DNA from: a virus
Direction: 5' to 3' (one strand)
DNA: 39,865 nucleotides
Virus record (IMG/VR): IMGVR_UViG_3300037247_000607
Span: 1 to 39,865 of that record
In this document: positions 2,467 to 39,865 of the stretch, in pieces
Layout of the letters: every line of letters starts with the position of its first letter
How positions within the stretch are numbered: the first letter of the stretch is position 1
Notes under the pieces: model-generated
Seen by the model: only the letters and a program-made list of their open reading frames with translations
What the model was told of the DNA's origin: nothing
The model's database searches: none
Translations under genes and position numbers: made by a program

Positions 2467-2726
2467 TGCGCAACTGTAAAATCAGGTTCTTGGCCGCTAT
2501 GTTTGCATGGAAAAAGCGCCTCAGTAAATCCATACAACAGACCGACTTTGATCTGCTTCGTAGTCGCGTTGCTCCTGAGATGTCAAATAGAGACTTCAAC
2601 TTGGAATGTAAGCGACTAATTGAGCTTGGATTAATTAAAGAACAACCAGCCTTGAAGCTGAAACTAGGATTAACGATGCGTGGACGAGGCGTTGTTGAAG
2701 TATTGCAGGAGGGGGACGATGACTAG
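2463..2726 (+). CDS. Small basic protein, possibly winged-helix-like
   Basis: 87 residues starting ATGATG and overlapping the previous stop. Basic N-terminus with a short hydrophobic run (IRFLAAMFAW), then a helical region with NRDFNLECKRLIELGLIKE followed by a beta-like TMRGRGVVEVL. This order is reminiscent of a winged-helix DNA-binding domain, but that is only an impression. It overlaps the nuclease gene by 8 bp. Confidence 0.6.
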   Translation: MMRNCKIRFLAAMFAWKKRLSKSIQQTDFDLLRSRVAPEMSNRDFNLECKRLIELGLIKEQPALKLKLGLTMRGRGVVEVLQEGDDD

Positions 2727-3618
2727 ATTCACAAACAAGCTCGGGTTGCCGGAGACGATAATGCGCTGGGCCGAGGCGACGTTTCAACCGCCGTCCGACC
2801 CGAAAATCATGCGTGCCTCCGAAATCGGGGACTCGCTCACCATCGCACTCCTGAAACGTCGACACGCCGACGAGATTGTTCGTGACATCTCCGACCTCGT
2901 GTACGCACTTCTCGGTACGGCCGTCCACGAAATGCTCAGTCGCATGGAGGGGTCGACCAATGCGCTGATCGAAGAATCGCTTGAGCGCGAGGTGCCCGGG
3001 ATGGAGGGTTGGAAGATCACCGGGCATTGTGACTACCTGGAACCGTCCGACTACGCGTTGGGCCGCTACGACCTCTCCGACTACAAGGTGTCGAGTGTGT
3101 GGGCGTTTATCCTTGGGGACAAGCCGGAATGGGAGTGTCAGGTCAACGTCTACGCATGGCTCTATGAGGGGTACGGGTTTCGGATTGCCCGTCGGCGGGT
3201 TGTGGGGATCCTGCGAGACTGGAAAGAACGGGATGCGCGCCAGAAGCCGGACTACCCGCAACAGCCGGTTATTGTGGTGCCGCAAAATGAGTGGACGCCG
3301 AAGGCGACGGGCGAATGGGTTGCGGCGCGTGTACGGGAGTTTGCGGGACTTTTGGAGCTTGCGGACGAGGCGCTGCCGGCGTGTACGCCCGCAGAACGCT
3401 GGAACAAGTCTGCGAAGTGGGCTGTGAAGAAAAGTGCGAAGGTCAAGCGGGCGGTTACGGGCGGGTTGCATGACGACCCTGATAGTGCTCGTGAACACGC
3501 GGAGGCAATCGGTGGCGTGGTCGAGCACCGCGCGGGTGAGGACACACGCTGCCAGAGATATTGTGATGTGACTCAATGGTGTCCGTATTTCGCAAAGGTC
3601 TACGGAGGTGGAAAATGA
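2719..3618 (+). CDS. PD-(D/E)XK exonuclease, RecB/Cas4-like
   Basis: 299 residues from ATG 2719 (GGAGGGGG just upstream). The nuclease core is readable: His70 in GTAVHEML, acidic residues near 87-91, Asp105 in TGHCDYLE, the DYK triad at 121-123, and Gln141 in ECQVNVYAW (the RecB QxxxY-type motif). Three Cys near the C-terminus (DTRCQRYC...QWC) plus one further upstream (LPAC) resemble the four-Cys iron-sulfur site of Cas4/AddB nucleases. Such phage enzymes resect double-strand ends for recombination. The annealing-protein candidate at 4885 would be its natural partner. The metal site is inferred. Confidence 0.85.
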   Translation: MTRFTNKLGLPETIMRWAEATFQPPSDPKIMRASEIGDSLTIALLKRRHADEIVRDISDLVYALLGTAVHEMLSRMEGSTNALIEESLEREVPGMEGWKITGHCDYLEPSDYALGRYDLSDYKVSSVWAFILGDKPEWECQVNVYAWLYEGYGFRIARRRVVGILRDWKERDARQKPDYPQQPVIVVPQNEWTPKATGEWVAARVREFAGLLELADEALPACTPAERWNKSAKWAVKKSAKVKRAVTGGLHDDPDSAREHAEAIGGVVEHRAGEDTRCQRYCDVTQWCPYFAKVYGGGK

Positions 3619-3914
3619 TGGTGTTCGTTGTGGCAAGAGAAGGAATCAATAGTGTGCTTATTTGCGGTATTTTTTTCGACGAGTCGGCGGCGATGGCACA
3701 CGCGGAGAAATGCGCCCGCGGAGAGTCGGACCACTACCACGATTATACGGTCAGACCATACGAGTTGGATGTGGCTGTTGACGATATACCAGACGAACAC
3801 GCCCGGTTTAGTTGGTCGGATTGTCTCGGGAAGAGGCACACCTCGCAAAACAAAGATAGCGCCTACCTACGGCTTGACCGCGGCGACGACGACATCGGGA
3901 TGAGGGCAGTATGA
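3615..3914 (+). CDS. Unknown early protein
   Basis: 99 residues, starting at the ATGATG overlapping the nuclease stop, with GGAGGTGG upstream. The N-terminus looks like a small alpha/beta domain (VFVVAREGINSVLICGIFFDE, then a helix with AAMAHAEK), followed by a charged region and a WSDCLGKR segment. No family recognised. Confidence 0.72.
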   Translation: MMVFVVAREGINSVLICGIFFDESAAMAHAEKCARGESDHYHDYTVRPYELDVAVDDIPDEHARFSWSDCLGKRHTSQNKDSAYLRLDRGDDDIGMRAV

Positions 3915-4327
3915 GCGACAAGGACAAGCCGAAACCCGACGCGCAGCTATCGCGGGAGCAGATGGCGGGATTATTGAGTATCGGCGTTATAGATGCGTCC
4001 GACGAGAAGCAGATTCTCGCCGCCTTCGACGCACAACGGGCGCAGATCGAGTATTGGGCCAAACAGGCAGAGCTTTGGGCTAAGGATTATAAAAAAACCA
4101 CGGAAGAACGCGATTTTCAGTATCAACTAAAGAAGAAGTGGCACGGGCACTATGAAAAGCTCCGCGCCGACAACGATGCGCTGCATGAGGCGGGAGAAGC
4201 GGTTTTGAAGAACTACAACGCCCCGCACGCTATTGAACTTCGATACCGTGCCGATTGTATGGACAAACTCCGCGCCGTCCTGACCCGCGTCGGCGCACGG
4301 ACAACGAACCCGGAGGAACCGAAATGA
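3911..4327 (+). CDS. Coiled-coil protein, + strand member of a four-copy paralogous family
   Basis: 138 residues starting MSDKDKP. It carries the same modules in the same order as three minus-strand genes at 16813-18287: a REQ-containing N-terminus, AFDAQRAQIE, a coiled coil, LRADNDALHEAGE and a C-terminal LTRVGARTT. Similarity is visible at DNA level too, so the copies are related by recent duplication. Overlaps both neighbours by ATGA. Role unknown; the coiled coil suggests oligomerisation or protein binding. Confidence 0.8.
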   Translation: MSDKDKPKPDAQLSREQMAGLLSIGVIDASDEKQILAAFDAQRAQIEYWAKQAELWAKDYKKTTEERDFQYQLKKKWHGHYEKLRADNDALHEAGEAVLKNYNAPHAIELRYRADCMDKLRAVLTRVGARTTNPEEPK

Positions 4328-4866
4328 GCCCGAACGACGACATCAACAATTTGTGGCGCAAGGATATTCAGAGTTCGATTTGGGGGCCGTGCGCGGGGAT
4401 TACCGACGAGGAATGTCAGCACATTCACGATTTAATCGCGGTAAATCCGGTTGCAGTTTTCGGCGTTTTGAATGGGGCGCTGAACACGAAGGGTCTGTGT
4501 TTTCATATTACCACCTTGGAGGAATCGAACATGAGCGACAAAGACGATAAAATAAAGCCCGGCAGCTTCCAGTATACAGACCCAATGATCTCCGTCCCTT
4601 CATTGCTGGCACGAAACCCGGAAACAGAACTACGGCGAATGGCAACGGGTGTTCTGAGCGAGAACCACTGTACGTGCAGGAAGGGTATCGAACAGGAATA
4701 CAAACACAACGAAGGCCATCGACAAGATTACTGCTTGTGGTGCGTATGCTACGATCTCATCGAGAAGCTGGACAAGTACCACGAGTGGAAAAAGAGTAGT
4801 ATAAAGTATGTGTCAGCAACAAGCGGCGTTGATGTTTCGGATACTAAAAAAACGAAGAACAGATAG
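4324..4866 (+). CDS. Unknown protein, possibly two fused units
   Basis: 180 residues from ATG 4324, overlapping the previous gene. An internal in-frame ATG at 4531 has its own GGAGG about 8 nt upstream and opens with MSDKDDK, like the family starts nearby. The C-terminal part has a cysteine cluster (CTCRKG, then CLWCVCYDL) that may bind zinc. Two neighbouring genes may have fused, or a shorter second product is made from the internal start. Function unknown. Confidence 0.65.
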   Translation: MSPNDDINNLWRKDIQSSIWGPCAGITDEECQHIHDLIAVNPVAVFGVLNGALNTKGLCFHITTLEESNMSDKDDKIKPGSFQYTDPMISVPSLLARNPETELRRMATGVLSENHCTCRKGIEQEYKHNEGHRQDYCLWCVCYDLIEKLDKYHEWKKSSIKYVSATSGVDVSDTKKTKNR

Positions 4867-4884: not shown

Positions 4885-5835
4885 ATGACCAACGAAAACC
4901 TACCCGCAGTTGTCGAAAATAAAAAGAATCCCGTGGCGCCGCTCTCGCTTACGGACGTGAAGAACCAGGTCAATCTCATTCAGGAGATTATGCGCCAGGT
5001 GATGAAGAAGGACGAGCATTACGGCATTATACCCGGCACGAAGAAGCCGACACTCTACAAGCCGGGCGCCGAAAAGCTCTGCCTCACGTTTCGGCTGGAT
5101 CCCGAACTCGATGTGTCCCTGACCGCGCTACCGGAGGGCCACCGCGAGTATATGGTGGTCTGTACTATGTATCACATCGACAGCGGGAAGCGGCTGGGGC
5201 AGGGCGTCGGCCTGTGCTCGACGATGGAGACGAAGTACCGCTATCGCGGGGGCGAACCGATACCGACCGGGCAGCCCGTACCCGAAACCTACTGGAAGAA
5301 GCCGAGGGGGAAGCGTGACCAGAACTTGCTCGGGGGCGACGGGTTTCTGCCGTTCAAGGTCAAGAACGCCGATGGCGCCTGGGTGATCGCCCGTAAGGGC
5401 GAGAAGGTCGAGAACCCGGACATCGCGGATACCTATAACACGGTGTTGAAGATGGCGAGCAAGCGGGCAAAGGTTGATGCGGTGCTGACGGTCACGGCCG
5501 CGAGTGACATCTTCACGCAAGACCTTGAGGAAAAAGCATCGAAGCAGGCACCGGCCGAGAAGTCCGAGAAGAAGCGGGCGACAAAGGCGAAGAAGATCAG
5601 GTCGTCAGAGCAGGAGCGCGCGGCGTATGAAGAGGTAATCGAGGTGCTTGGACTCGTGGACACCTCGACGGGGGTCAAGGACTACATGACGAAGAACGAC
5701 GAGAGCCTGAAGAAAGACCTCGGCGACGACCTCTTCGCGGTGCTACGGAAAGAGGCGGGCGCGCTCTACAAGATTCTCTCCGAGAAGGAAGCGGCCGAAG
5801 CGTCCGAAGGGGAGGGGGAGTACAAGACGGAATGA
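4885..5835 (+). CDS. Probable single-strand annealing/recombination protein
   Basis: 316 residues, ATG 4885 behind GGAGG. The block DEHYGIIPGTKKPTLYKPGA followed by EKLCLTFRLDPE and a GQGVGLCSTMETKYRYRGG segment is, as I remember it, conserved in phage proteins lying beside RecB-like nucleases and treated as single-strand annealing or ssDNA-binding proteins. KMASKRAKVDAVLT near residue 195 continues the pattern; the C-terminal third is a Lys/Glu-rich tail. It lies 1.3 kb from the exonuclease gene. The conserved block is clear; annealing activity is inferred. Confidence 0.6.
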   Translation: MTNENLPAVVENKKNPVAPLSLTDVKNQVNLIQEIMRQVMKKDEHYGIIPGTKKPTLYKPGAEKLCLTFRLDPELDVSLTALPEGHREYMVVCTMYHIDSGKRLGQGVGLCSTMETKYRYRGGEPIPTGQPVPETYWKKPRGKRDQNLLGGDGFLPFKVKNADGAWVIARKGEKVENPDIADTYNTVLKMASKRAKVDAVLTVTAASDIFTQDLEEKASKQAPAEKSEKKRATKAKKIRSSEQERAAYEEVIEVLGLVDTSTGVKDYMTKNDESLKKDLGDDLFAVLRKEAGALYKILSEKEAAEASEGEGEYKTE

Positions 5836-5851: not shown

Positions 5852-6427
5852 ATGAAAAAGATACCGTCTCTATTCCAGCGAAACTATGACGGCGACTGTC
5901 TCGTGCGTGACGAGGTGGTGCCGGGGTCCGAGTGGGTGCTGGCTGGCGAGGGCGTGCCCACTCGGAAGTATGACGGGGCGGCCTGTATGGTCAAGGATGG
6001 GGCGCTATGGAAGCGGTACGATTGCAAGCTCGGGCGCAAGATACCCCATGACTTTTTGCCGTGCGAGGTGGTGCCCGATAAACACACCGGACACTGGCCC
6101 GGCTGGGTTCCCGTGGGGGATGGCCCGGACGACAAATGGCACCGCGAGGCGCTTAGTTGGGCATTTGATCGCACGAATGGGGTGCTGGTTGATGGCACCT
6201 ATGAACTGTGCGGACGAAAGATTCAGGGCGACCCGGAAGGCTTTAGGTATCACGTTCTTGTTCCGCACGGATGGGGTGGGCTTCTCAAAGGATGCCCGCG
6301 CACGTTCGACGGGATCAAGGCGTTTCTCTCTGATGGCGTGATCGAGGGGATAGTGTGGCACCACCCGGACGGGCGCATGGTGAAGATCAAAGGGAAGGAC
6401 TTTGGCTTTTTGCGGAGGAAGAAATGA
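5852..6427 (+). CDS. ATP-dependent RNA ligase (DUF5565-type nucleotidyltransferase)
   Basis: 191 residues. The covalent nucleotidyltransferase motifs are in order: KYDG at 39-42 (motif I, Lys39 is the AMP-accepting lysine), DGTYEL at 114-119 (motif III), EGIVW at 165-169 (motif IV) and KIKGK at 178-182 (motif V). The compact size without an added domain fits small RNA ligases, and the opening pattern resembles the DUF5565 family. It would seal RNA breaks, for example tRNA or rRNA nicked by host defence nucleases. A foldable RNA follows immediately (6428-6522). Family call good; substrate unknown. Confidence 0.85.
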   Translation: MKKIPSLFQRNYDGDCLVRDEVVPGSEWVLAGEGVPTRKYDGAACMVKDGALWKRYDCKLGRKIPHDFLPCEVVPDKHTGHWPGWVPVGDGPDDKWHREALSWAFDRTNGVLVDGTYELCGRKIQGDPEGFRYHVLVPHGWGGLLKGCPRTFDGIKAFLSDGVIEGIVWHHPDGRMVKIKGKDFGFLRRKK

Positions 6428-16812: not shown

Positions 16813-17349
16813 TTACTTCGCCTCTCCATCCTCGTACGCGGGTGAACTTACTTGAATCTCATCGGGGTTCGGGGTGCGTCCCGTTTGTTCGAAGACAGCG
16901 AGTGCTTTGTTGATCTTTTCCCACTTCTTATCCGTTGACAATACTTTCCCGTGTAATTTCCAAACTTCCATTAGCGCAGCAAAGCCATCGGTGAGCACAT
17001 CGTTGTCCGGGTCCGTTTTTGTGGTGTGTGAGCCGACACGGGCGAGCACAGTGCCGAGTTTTTCAACCGCAATCAAGAGGTCAAGCCCTTCGTTGTCTTT
17101 TTCCCAATACTTGCGATACACTATCTCCCCCGCCTCCCGCAGCGCCGTGTTGTCGGCGCGGAGTTTCTCGCTTGTTGCCCAACTCTCGCGCTCATCTTGT
17201 TCCAGTTCCTCAATCTGCGCCTGTTGTGCGTCGAAGGCGGCACGCAGGGCAGCAACAACGTCACTCCCTGTAGTTTTCTTTGTCACGATTGTGTCAATCG
17301 TGACGAGATATTCTTCCACTTGCTCCCGTGTCGGTGTCTTGTCACTCAT
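16813..17349 (-). CDS. Coiled-coil paralogue 3 (minus-strand array)
   Basis: 178 residues from ATG 17349, within a repeated start element (GGGAGCAAAAGCGATGA). Contains the family modules: MSDKTPTREQ, AFDAQQAQIEELEQ coil, LRADNTALREAGE and VLARVGSHTT, then a longer unique C-terminal part with DGFAALMEVWKLHGKVL. The start overlaps the previous stop by 8 bp, as in the other copies. Oligomeric adaptor or inhibitor function is conceivable but unsupported. Confidence 0.78.
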   Translation of the reverse strand: MSDKTPTREQVEEYLVTIDTIVTKKTTGSDVVAALRAAFDAQQAQIEELEQDERESWATSEKLRADNTALREAGEIVYRKYWEKDNEGLDLLIAVEKLGTVLARVGSHTTKTDPDNDVLTDGFAALMEVWKLHGKVLSTDKKWEKINKALAVFEQTGRTPNPDEIQVSSPAYEDGEAK

Positions 17350-17785
17350 CGCTTTTGCTCCCCTCTGTTCCGGTGCGGGCGAGGACGGCGCGAAATTCTC
17401 TGCTCCAACGTGCATCAACGCCTTTGTTTTCTGCCGCCGCACAGAGATATTCGCCAGCCTCCCGCAGCGCCGTGTTGTCGGCGCGGAGTTCGCAGTTCAA
17501 GCGTTCAACAATCGTTGCAGCGCGGTCGGCTATCCCTTCGGTTAGTTTCAACGAATCGATCTGCGCCTGCTGTGCGTCGAAGGCGTCGAGAATCTTTTGC
17601 CGAGACTTTAGCCGCGCGTCGCTATAATGTGCGCACTTGTAGCGTTGCAGTTCCGTCAAAAGATCATCCCGCGTCAGCGTGTCGTCAGTCATCGCTTTTG
17701 CTCCCTTCGGTGTGTTGTCTTCGAGATACTTAAATAGGGCCTCATACTCTGCTAACGTGTTCCCGCCTATGGTTGGTTCACTCAT
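17342..17785 (-). CDS. Coiled-coil paralogue 2 (minus-strand array)
   Basis: 147 residues from ATG 17785, or 116 from an in-frame ATG at 17692. Both starts lie in copies of the same GGGAGCAAAAGCGATGA element, so two products or an absorbed short upstream gene are possible. Modules: AFDAQQAQIDSLK coil, LRADNTALREAGEYL and AVLARTGTE, ending GSKSDE like its upstream paralogue. Function unknown. Confidence 0.75.
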   Translation of the reverse strand: MSEPTIGGNTLAEYEALFKYLEDNTPKGAKAMTDDTLTRDDLLTELQRYKCAHYSDARLKSRQKILDAFDAQQAQIDSLKLTEGIADRAATIVERLNCELRADNTALREAGEYLCAAAENKGVDARWSREFRAVLARTGTEGSKSDE

Positions 17786-18287
17786 CGCTTTTGCTCCCTT
17801 GTTTCGTGGTCCGTGCGCCGACGCGGTCGAGTACGGCGCGTTTGAGGACGGCTTTCAAACCATTCTTTATCTTGTGCCATTCCTGTAATTTCACATCAGA
17901 AGGCACGGGCGCTTTATCCAGCAAGGTTATTGCATCGTCTAGCGCCTTACGCAGTACCTTGTTGTTGGCACGGAGCCCTTGTCGCAAGGTGTCAAGGCGG
18001 ACGTTGATGGCCTTTTGTGTATTCTTATCCTCGCGCAGCGCCATGTTGTCGGCGCGGAGTGCTTTGTCGCCGCTACGGTATGCGTCAACCTGTCGCCCCA
18101 TTTCTTCTAGTCGCCGTTTCATTTCAATCCGCTTCTGTTGTATATCCTCAATCTGTGCTTGTTGTGCGTCGAAGGCATCAGAGAGTTTGCAGCAAAGTTC
18201 GTGCGTCCCATCAATGCCAAGTTTTTGGTAACGAATATCACTGATTGCCTTCCACGCCTGCTCCCGTATCAGTGTCTTGTCACTCAT
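17778..18287 (-). CDS. Coiled-coil paralogue 1 (minus-strand array)
   Basis: 169 residues from ATG 18287 in the repeated start element. Modules: MSDKTLIREQ, AFDAQQAQIEDIQQKRIEMK, then a long coil with ALRADNMALRED and a final VLDRVGARTTKQGSKSDE. The last residues are encoded by the next copy of the start element, giving the 8-bp overlap. The longest coiled coil of the family. Confidence 0.78.
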   Translation of the reverse strand: MSDKTLIREQAWKAISDIRYQKLGIDGTHELCCKLSDAFDAQQAQIEDIQQKRIEMKRRLEEMGRQVDAYRSGDKALRADNMALREDKNTQKAINVRLDTLRQGLRANNKVLRKALDDAITLLDKAPVPSDVKLQEWHKIKNGLKAVLKRAVLDRVGARTTKQGSKSDE

Positions 18288-18588
18288 CGCTTTTGCTCCC
18301 TTGTTTCGTTGTCCGTAGCGCGTCGAACGCCGTACAGCATGGCTGGCCCTTCCCGTCGTGTATCCATTCCTTTGGATAAAACTCATCTTTGATGTCGAAA
18401 CGCATCGACGCCGAAATGATCGGGCATCCATCTTCACCGTCAAGGGTCTGTCGGAACTTCTTGTCGGCTTTGCACTGATTGCACCACACATCGAAGAACA
18501 TCTCTCCTTCTGTGCCGTTTGATGGACAGTACGGCTCGCCCCCTTTGTAGCGGGCTGCCAAATCGTCTAGGTACATTTTACCCGGCAT
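18280..18588 (-). CDS. Conserved phage protein with Cys pairs
   Basis: 102 residues from ATG 18588 behind GGAGGTA (TAATG overlap). The pattern CPSNGTEGEMFFDVWCNQCK followed by an ADKKF helix resembles a family I remember from phages and prophages, with a CxxC that may bind metal together with later Cys (CPII, CC). It ends TTKQGSKSDE, shared with the next gene because both run into the start element. Function unknown. Confidence 0.74.
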   Translation of the reverse strand: MPGKMYLDDLAARYKGGEPYCPSNGTEGEMFFDVWCNQCKADKKFRQTLDGEDGCPIISASMRFDIKDEFYPKEWIHDGKGQPCCTAFDALRTTKQGSKSDE

Positions 18589-27408: not shown

Positions 27409-27888
27409 ATGCAGACAGTTTCAAAACGTCAGTTGACAACCGCGTTCACAACCGAAGCGGACATGCAGCCCGGCAACGTCATTTATGACGAGCGGGGAAG
27501 CAAGTACGCCAAGTGCAAGGCCGCAGCGGCGATTGCAGTCAACGAGACGTGCATGATAGACACGACCGACGCGGTACTCACTCGTGGGTACTACGTCCCA
27601 ACGGTCATCAGGTCGGCGATCATTGCTGACACCCCGAGGGTTATTGGCTTCAACAACACGGGATCCGCGATCACGTCGGGCGACTACTTTTGGGCAAAGA
27701 GTGGCCCGGTTGTAGACGCCCTTGCGGGTGACGTTGCCGCCGTTGTGACCGGAAGCCCGGCTTATTGCTCTGGGACGGACGGGGAGACGGACGACCTCGT
27801 TACGGGTGCCCTCTCGGTGCTCGGGACGTATCTGACCGACGCAGCGGCCACGACCGGAACGACGTGTCAAATCCTGACGCGCCTCTAG
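27409..27888 (+). CDS. Decoration-like protein, tandem paralogue A
   Basis: 159 residues, ATG 27409 behind GGAGG. First of three tandem relatives sharing EAD..PGNVIYDE, SKYAKCKAAAAIA, a GDYFWAK segment and an end rich in small residues. Directly behind the capsid gene, beta-rich and Ala/Gly/Thr-rich, it fits a capsid decoration or spike protein, similar in feel to trimeric head-stabilising proteins. Inference from position and composition. Confidence 0.68.
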   Translation: MQTVSKRQLTTAFTTEADMQPGNVIYDERGSKYAKCKAAAAIAVNETCMIDTTDAVLTRGYYVPTVIRSAIIADTPRVIGFNNTGSAITSGDYFWAKSGPVVDALAGDVAAVVTGSPAYCSGTDGETDDLVTGALSVLGTYLTDAAATTGTTCQILTRL

Positions 27889-27907
27889 GGGCGTCGAGCG
27901 AGTAGCT

Positions 27908-27990
27908 GCGCGGGGTCGGCCGTGTCTGGTGGCAATATGCACGGGGCGACGTGGGAGGAGCCAGAAGCAGGATCAAGGCTGGCCCCGCGC
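27908..27990 (+). ncRNA. Candidate structured RNA element between paralogues A and B
   Basis: GCGCGGGGTCGGCC (27908-27921) pairs with GGCTGGCCCCGCGC (27977-27990) along 14 positions with two G-T pairs. A nested TCTGG/CCAGA stem (27925-27929 with 27961-27965) encloses GCAATATGC. No T tract follows, so it is not a terminator. It may set the stability or translation of the decoration mRNAs. Confidence 0.45.
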
Positions 27991-28018
27991 GGGACATTAG
28001 AGCGAAAAAGGAGGTGTG

Positions 28019-28486
28019 ATGCGAACTATATCCAACGCACAACTAACGACGAGTTCGGTAAATGAAGCCGACCTGACGCCGGGAAATGTGATCTACGACG
28101 ATTTGTGCCGCAAGTACATCAAGTGCAAAGCCGCGTCGTCGATTGTCACAGACACGGTGACTTATTCCCACGCAACAGCCGCGACAAAAGAAAGGGGCTA
28201 CTTGCTTCCGTGGGCGTTCGCCGGGGTGGCGGGGAAAAGCGACTCGGCAATCGGTTGGAACAAAACCGGCCAAAATATCACGGTCGGACACTTCTTCTGG
28301 TGCATGGTTGGCCCGATTGTGGAGCAAGTTGTTTCCGATGGCGTGATAGTCGTAGGTTCCAGGGTCTATGTCGCAGCTCTTGGGAAGGTATCAGCACTGC
28401 CCGATGGTTTGGAGGGTGCAAACCTCGGGACGGCGCTGACCACAGCTTCGGGGAACCTTGTAGACGTGCTTCGCCGGGACGGATAA
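28019..28486 (+). CDS. Decoration-like protein, tandem paralogue B
   Basis: 155 residues from ATG 28019 (GGAGG 28010-28014); GTG 28016 is too close to the binding site. Same modules as paralogue A: QLTTSSVNEADLTPGNVIYD, YIKCKAASSI, GHFFWCMVGP. Ends DVLRRDG, and a DNA remnant of this end is found after paralogue C. Diverged from A mainly in the middle. Probably a surface protein of the head. Confidence 0.67.
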   Translation: MRTISNAQLTTSSVNEADLTPGNVIYDDLCRKYIKCKAASSIVTDTVTYSHATAATKERGYLLPWAFAGVAGKSDSAIGWNKTGQNITVGHFFWCMVGPIVEQVVSDGVIVVGSRVYVAALGKVSALPDGLEGANLGTALTTASGNLVDVLRRDG

Positions 28487-28533
28487 ACGACAACAACAAT
28501 GGCATGGAGGCCAAAAACCGCACGGAGGAAAGA

Positions 28534-29016
28534 ATGAGCGTTCAAACATTATCATCGACGGAATTGGCGGTAGAATCTGACACGGAAGCGGACCTGAGAC
28601 TAGGGAACGTTGCCTATGACAACGAGGAAAGCAAGTGGGTTAAATGCAAGGCGGCAGCGGCGATTGCGCTGGGCGAAGTCGTGATTCCTGATGCGACCGC
28701 CGCGGTGCTTAATCGCACGTTCTACGTCCCAACGGTCGTGAAGTGTACGGGGATCGTCAAGACGGCGGCGATTATTGGTGTCGCTGTCACGGCAATAGAC
28801 AGCGGCGACTACTTTTGGGCGAAGGTCGGCCCGTACATTCTCTGTCTCGCGGGAACAACCGGGTCGGTCGCAACCGGGATACTTGTGTATGCTTCGGCAA
28901 CGGCAGGCGAAGTAGACGACACAGTAACAGGGGTCGAAGCGGGCGTCTTTGGTGTTTCCGTAACGGCATCGGGCGTGCCCGCCGCTGGACAGATTATCGT
29001 CCTGCGGCCAGTTTGA
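28534..29016 (+). CDS. Decoration-like protein, tandem paralogue C
   Basis: 160 residues from ATG 28534 (GGAGGAA upstream). Modules as in A and B: ESDTEADLRLGNVAYDNEES, KWVKCKAAAAIALGE, SGDYFWAKVGP. Ends IIVLRPV, after which the non-coding DNA still resembles the DVLRRDG end of paralogue B, so this copy has a new stop. Role as for A. Confidence 0.68.
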   Translation: MSVQTLSSTELAVESDTEADLRLGNVAYDNEESKWVKCKAAAAIALGEVVIPDATAAVLNRTFYVPTVVKCTGIVKTAAIIGVAVTAIDSGDYFWAKVGPYILCLAGTTGSVATGILVYASATAGEVDDTVTGVEAGVFGVSVTASGVPAAGQIIVLRPV

Positions 29017-39710: not shown

Positions 39711-39820
39711 TTATCCCCTTGGTCCTTTTAAGTGCGGTTGCACTTCTGGCATCACTGTGGCCGGAGCTTTTCACGAACCATATTCCACACGAACTCGGAA
39801 TTACAAAAGATAAGAAATGA
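39707..39820 (+). CDS. 37-aa single-pass membrane protein spanning the circular junction
   Basis: 37 residues from ATG 39707 (AAGGAGA upstream, ATGA overlap with the previous gene). IIPLVLLSAVALLASLW is a transmembrane helix, followed by a short polar tail ending KDKK. Its stop overlaps the endolysin start. A small holin or antiholin is likely from position; sequence alone does not assign a family. In the closed circle the gene runs across the cut and ends at base 82. Confidence 0.7.
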   Translation: MIIPLVLLSAVALLASLWPELFTNHIPHELGITKDKK

Positions 39821-39865
39821 GCATTGCAACCCGTACTCCTGTGAAACATGGCTACCAGATTGGCC
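39739..39865. repeat. Terminal direct repeat, right copy; includes the first codons of the endolysin
   Basis: Identical to 1-127. Contains the last part of the 37-aa gene and the first 16 codons of the endolysin (ATG 39817), which continues at base 79 and onward in the left copy. Confidence 0.95.

Follow-up and report, generated by a model that had tools for sequence, protein, structure and literature searches.

A probable mosaic family of in-register coiled-coil genes in a divergent tailed phage

The genome examined here, from an uncultured phage, carries four small homologous genes, B, C, D, and E, which most plausibly form a mosaic, in-register coiled-coil gene family that is kept and reshuffled by recombination at islands of about 27–42 nt. 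We put the probability of this reading at roughly 0.6. The islands agree down to the choice of codon and end abruptly, the coils between them stay in heptad phase, and a tail is held in common with the neighboring gene A. We infer recombination from these patterns within a single genome rather than from an event seen directly in a related one. The proteins could have an accessory binding role, with exchangeable heads presented on rods of fixed, differing length. The case for phage mosaicism by recombination at short boundary sequences is usually made across genomes and across gene borders. In this phage, a single family in a single genome has several putative seams within its genes, along with a tail common to an unrelated neighbor, and within-phage diversification of gene families becomes testable.

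The Phage Genome

The window, i.e., the whole stretch of DNA analyzed, is a complete virus record of 39,865 bases. Profile matches within it include an endolysin, an exonuclease, an RNA ligase, a DNA polymerase clamp, a terminase, a P22-like portal, and a capsid protein. Because the best relatives of the terminase among sequenced phages are just 20–25% identical, the window is a divergent tailed phage. Perfect direct repeats of 127 bp are found at both ends (1–127 and 39739–39865), representing either terminal redundancy or a circular assembly that was cut open. The RNA ligase (5852–6427) has 54–55% identity to its counterparts in mycobacteriophages, Collard and Gengar among them.

A Four-Gene Paralogous Family

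Genes B, C, and D lie in tandem on the minus strand, and gene E is a dispersed paralog 13 kb off on the plus strand. Gene B (17778–18287) encodes 169 aa, gene C (17342–17692) encodes 116 aa, gene D (16813–17349) encodes 178 aa, some 65 of which form an additional C-terminal segment, and gene E (3911–4327) encodes 138 aa. The family has a set of ordered islands: a start, AFDAQ(Q/R)AQI, LRADNxALREAGE, and AVLxRVGARTT, the last two recurring in all four genes in the looser forms LRADNxAL and L.R(V/T)G. The AFDAQ islands were located by DNA pattern at 18150–18176 in B, 17558–17584 in C, and 17212–17238 in D, all minus strand, and at 4022–4048 on the plus strand in E. The LRADN islands were located in the same way at 18030–18059 (B), 17459–17488 (C), and 4160–4189 (E); that of D (17134–17163) is identical to the island of C over 30 nt. 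The AVLDRVGARTT island of B (17805–17837, minus strand) and the AVLTRVGARTT island of E (4274–4306, plus strand) differ at 5 of 36 nt. Gene B also has a second, weaker block of the LRADN type (LRANN; LRANNKVLRKALD, 17938–17977, minus strand), which lies 84 nt (28 aa) further along than the first, shares 70% identity with its counterpart in D, and was absent from the original prediction.

Homology shows at both the protein and the DNA level. Local protein alignment scores are 115 for D–C, 113 for D–E, 94 for B–D, 78 for C–E, 72 for B–C, and 66 for B–E. Five of the six pairs exceed the best of 500 shuffles, and B–E merely equals it. At two or fewer mismatches, DNA scans recover four sites for the AFDAQ 27-mer and four for the LRADN 30-mer, where zero are expected, and the islands also show up as DNA repeats. 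By sequence, the four genes thus form a single family of paralogs, encoding small phage proteins that are mainly helical. Descent by duplication, as the original prediction had it, is borne out by these scores and islands, and the likeness outside the start elements goes beyond that of generic coiled coils. The proposed fixed order, running from REQ to TT, is common to all four genes with exceptions in two of them: C opens with TRDD instead of REQ and ends in RTGTEGSKSDE without TT, and in E the REQ is displaced by 8 residues. The interval first proposed, 17341–18316, takes in B, C, and the start elements, but the family reaches down to 16813 with D and out to 3911–4327 with E.

The family has no match above the curated cut-off in Pfam or NCBIfam. 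Only D matches phrog_9635 (E 2.2e-4, residues 16–77, in the coil region), and B, C, and E have no match there. Two observations were made nearby. The head-coding part of D holds an inverted repeat of 13 pairs at 17279–17307 (GTCACGATTG TGT CAATCGTGAC core). The open reading frame at 4324–4866 has an internal ATG at 4531, after GGAGGAATCGAAC, from which it reads MSDKDDKIKP, resembling the MSDKDKPKP of E; the frame may be a fusion of two genes, or the start block may be shared.

A Heptad Ladder of Coil Lengths

Counted between the AFDAQ Phe and the LRADN Leu, the distance is 24 residues in D, 31 in C, 38 in B, and 45 in E. These distances step by one heptad and are equal modulo 7, and the second block of B, exactly 28 residues on, is also in heptad phase. 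For four lengths drawn evenly from 18–52, equality modulo 7 has a probability of ~0.003, in a test that was post hoc. The register places the Leu, Asn, and Leu of LRADNxAL at positions d, a, and d. Hydrophobic periodicity at a and d (ILMVF) is found in B and D (p 0.001 in each) and in C (p 0.037), and E shows no significant periodicity (p 0.28). An AlphaFold model of D is all-helical and poor (pLDDT 51), a value at which a fold search started from the model was meaningless.

The simplest reading of the ladder is that each protein would be one continuous, in-register coiled coil. An Asn at position a in GCN4-type coils points to a parallel dimer, and by analogy the Asn at a of LRADN suggests parallel dimerization here. 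Each protein would then have a variable head, some 37 residues long, followed by one continuous parallel coiled coil running from AFDAQQAQI to LRADNxAL, with a helical tail ending in RVGARTT. Changes in coil length by whole heptads alone would leave each protein in register with itself. Homo-oligomers of distinct length are favored because proteins of unequal length could not pair both caps together. The ladder can therefore be put as a structural prediction, namely, self-pairing rods whose lengths differ in steps of about one heptad.

The Start Element and Gene Overlaps

The 17-mer GGGAGCAAAAGCGATGA is found in exactly four copies in the window, all on the minus strand, agreeing with the number and strand first proposed. 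With up to three mismatches allowed, the expected number of matches is 0.15, and none of the shuffled sequences had as many as four. The element has GGAG about 8 bases ahead of an ATG, and, also as proposed, it unites this Shine–Dalgarno sequence and ATG with the tail of the preceding gene. At 18284–18300 (the A|B junction), 17782–17798 (the end of B, with the ATG at 17785), and 17346–17362 (the C|D junction), the upstream gene closes with GSKSDE and a stop where the next one opens, giving an 8-bp overlap, ATGAGTGA. Identical overlaps had been proposed at all four elements, and these three have them. The copy at 17689–17705, at the probable start of C, reads ...TEGSKSDD and a stop in the other frame, but a stop just upstream closes that frame, and no gene ends there. 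Elsewhere in the operon, most genes overlap by ATGA and have different upstream sequence, so the 17-mer belongs to the array; E is without a copy. A start island that joins the tail and stop of an upstream gene to the Shine–Dalgarno sequence and ATG of the next would keep both genes translatable after any join made there.

Two of the elements are separated by a 93-bp stretch (17693–17785, minus strand) that is in frame with C and would give it an optional N-terminal extension of 31 aa. With the start of C placed at 17692, the Met-to-Phe distance is 38–39 residues throughout the family; with it at 17785, C would have a distance of 69. The start at 17692 is likely because the distance is then constant across all four genes. 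The same constancy suggests that the 93-bp stretch is probably the remnant of a deleted unit that kept its start and tail and lost its body.

A Family Tail on an Unrelated Gene

In one of the three overlaps, the upstream partner is gene A (18280–18588, minus strand), which lies outside the family. Its product is a conserved phage protein of a different family (phrog_13210 / phrog_6074, with PHROGs E-values of 1.4e-15 and 1.2e-10). Gene A ends in CTAFDALRTTKQGSKSDE, its last eleven residues (RTTKQGSKSDE) are those with which B ends, and the match extends to the DNA. A close homolog of A (L020) ends in CTAFEAKPA, and the other homologs diverge at the same point. Because the homologs are without the tail while A matches the end of B, the family tail was probably joined to gene A during the insertion or deletion of a unit there. 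A tail of this kind on a nonfamily gene strengthens the case for the portable unit of the original prediction. The loci of the gene A homologs are without the coiled-coil family.

Islands Conserved as DNA

Within the islands, DNA identity is 67–89%, and identical residues agree in codon well above the level expected from the codon usage of the phage. This holds for the AFD island (42/54 against 24.1 expected, p ~5e-5, the simulation floor), the LRAD island (52/61 against 21.6, also p ~5e-5 at the floor), the RVG island (21/39 against 10.6, p 0.0025), and the start island (11/15 against 5.6, p 0.008). The p-values are approximate, since the reference codon usage rests on 21 genes picked out with a simple script and the six pairs are not independent; the islands are also short. 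Codon agreement in the head, coil, and post-LRAD segments is at expectation, and the contrast between the inside and the outside of the islands is large despite the approximate p-values. Outside the islands, identity is at chance level (5–9% for amino acids and 26–30% for nucleotides), so the coils cannot be aligned. Conserved caps around variable coils, another part of the original prediction, describe this arrangement well. The edges are abrupt, with identity dropping from 12/12 to ~2–5/12 within 12–24 nt. The nearest pair also changes from island to island, being B–D for the start (3/43 differences), C–D for LRAD (3/39), and B–E for RVG (5/36).

The codon identity is beyond what protein selection alone would give, and either recombination between copies or a function at the DNA level would account for it. 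Recombination between islands, by tandem duplication, gene conversion, or cassette exchange, would have built and homogenized the set and left mosaic genes in which islands of ~27–42 nt are alike as DNA and the sequence between them is unrelated.

The strongest alternative, which we nonetheless regard as doubtful, is an ordinary old duplication, after which strong selection at the protein level preserved a small number of motifs while the rest drifted freely, with no recombination between islands. Families with conserved motifs and free linkers are common, the motifs make structural sense as heptads, and divergence outside the islands is saturated, all of which fit such a history. Selection on protein does not hold synonymous codons in place, though, as the LRAD count illustrates, and here the codon identity includes E at a distant locus on the opposite strand. 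The change of nearest pair between islands also argues against it. It is unlikely, and more so than an old duplication, that the islands are kept for a function in DNA or RNA, such as protein-binding or translation-associated sites, with the protein motifs simply following. The synonymous conservation would be explained, and the start element resembles the Start-Associated Sequences (SAS) of cluster K mycobacteriophages in its position and in spanning an upstream stop. However, the 17-mer is confined to this array and absent at other starts, and the internal islands keep both the reading frame and the heptad phase, neither of which would be needed for a DNA site. RNA structure was rejected as the function of the islands, as their folding is not unusual and Rfam gave no match. 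That the four are unrelated coiled-coil proteins alike through composition alone is scarcely credible: phage coiled coils often contain heptads of the LRAEN type and the B–E score only equals its best shuffle, but the DNA islands with zero expected, the constant order, and five of six pairs beyond shuffles contradict it.

Two other origins were considered. Mobile inserts were rejected because they do not fit the constant island order and head length. A diversity-generating retroelement target, in which a template and a variable repeat match almost fully except at adenines, does not fit variable segments that are at chance identity, and no template repeat was found in a repeat search.

Possible Recombination Machinery

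Recombination at the islands, the reading we prefer, has candidate agents in the phage itself. Upstream of E lies an exonuclease of the PD-(D/E)XK type (2680–3618, plus strand; phrog_2139 exonuclease, E 8e-39; the Pfam PDDEXK_1 match is below its cut-off). Downstream of E, a gene at 4885–5835 on the plus strand encodes a candidate Rad52-like single-strand annealing protein (phrog_10048, a conserved protein). In a Foldseek search with its low-confidence model (pLDDT 62), the six best PDB matches are all RAD52, with a best E-value of 6e-3 and probability up to 0.97. Homologs of this gene are found at three other loci (L025–L027), which are without the coiled-coil family. The position of the two genes on either side of E is suggestive, and they would be the likely agents of recombination at the islands. 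Red- and RecA-dependent recombination requires ~30 bp of homology (PMC2327257), a minimum close to the length of the islands. Phage T4 amplifies segments at microhomologies of 6–10 bp (PMC9391042).

A more specific proposal is that the codon-identical islands of ~30 nt serve as seams where the phage's own annealing system swaps cassettes of coil and head while preserving the reading frame and the heptad register. This remains speculative, and we consider it somewhat less probable than the old duplication discussed above. If true, seam exchange would be a recombination-based route to varied protein length and varied binding heads on self-pairing, graded rods.

Relatives and Comparison with Known Systems

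Searches for relatives of the family gave no matches or chance matches only by tblastn against phages with D, E, and C, and none were found by a profile search of IMG/VR or in bacterial and archaeal genomes. Searches with the variable segments alone gave nothing convincing. Degenerate DNA scans of IMG/VR, which reach close relatives only, gave six unrelated matches for AFDAQ (five to a tape-measure-like protein and one to another) and none for LRADNxALxEAGE. Exact matches to the 17-mer lie in 9 viral contigs, which is roughly what chance would give, and related genes are absent from all of them. Searches with the terminase and the major capsid protein gave no whole-phage relatives, and the collections searched may lack near kin of the window.

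Several known systems share individual features with this one. In mycobacteriophage Island3, the adjacent genes 67 and 68 belong to different families and have about 18 C-terminal residues and ~50–60 bp of DNA in common, for which recombination at short shared sequences was proposed (PMC3029335). Genes A and B similarly have their last 11 codons in common. The Island3 case is a single gene pair in which internal islands were not described, whereas here there is a four-gene family with in-frame islands and heptad-stepped coils.

The SAS of cluster K mycobacteriophages is a short repeated sequence containing a Shine–Dalgarno motif a few bases before the ATG, mostly in one orientation; it can span the stop of the upstream gene and is repeated across many gene families per genome (PMC3203893). 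The element described here likewise bears a Shine–Dalgarno sequence just before an ATG, keeps to one orientation, and can span an upstream stop. It differs from the SAS in sequence (GGGATAGGAGCCC for the SAS) and in being confined to four copies at one array where both frames are coding, and it does not belong with the SAS.

The T-even internal proteins Ip1–Ip3 are diverse small accessory proteins, each of which blocks a different GmrSD system (PMC12373910, PMC9391042). As in this family, one phage encodes several small proteins that have a short common signal and are otherwise diverse. The common part in the T-even proteins is an N-terminal capsid-targeting signal, whereas the family described here, known from its sequence, has four islands along the length of the gene and a coiled coil.

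A parallel for the ladder is found in the linkers of phytochrome-linked diguanylate cyclases, whose coiled-coil lengths differ mostly by multiples of seven (PMC9587094). In both cases the length of coil between fixed parts steps by seven. The cyclases are orthologs across bacteria with one linker length per organism, while the ladder here is found within one phage genome.

A second set of tandem paralogs is present elsewhere in the window. Downstream of the capsid gene, the stretch at 27409–29016 holds three tandem copies of a domain of the TEADMQPGNVIYDERGSKYAKCKAAAAIA type, with an 86-nt repeat whose copies are 71–73% identical.
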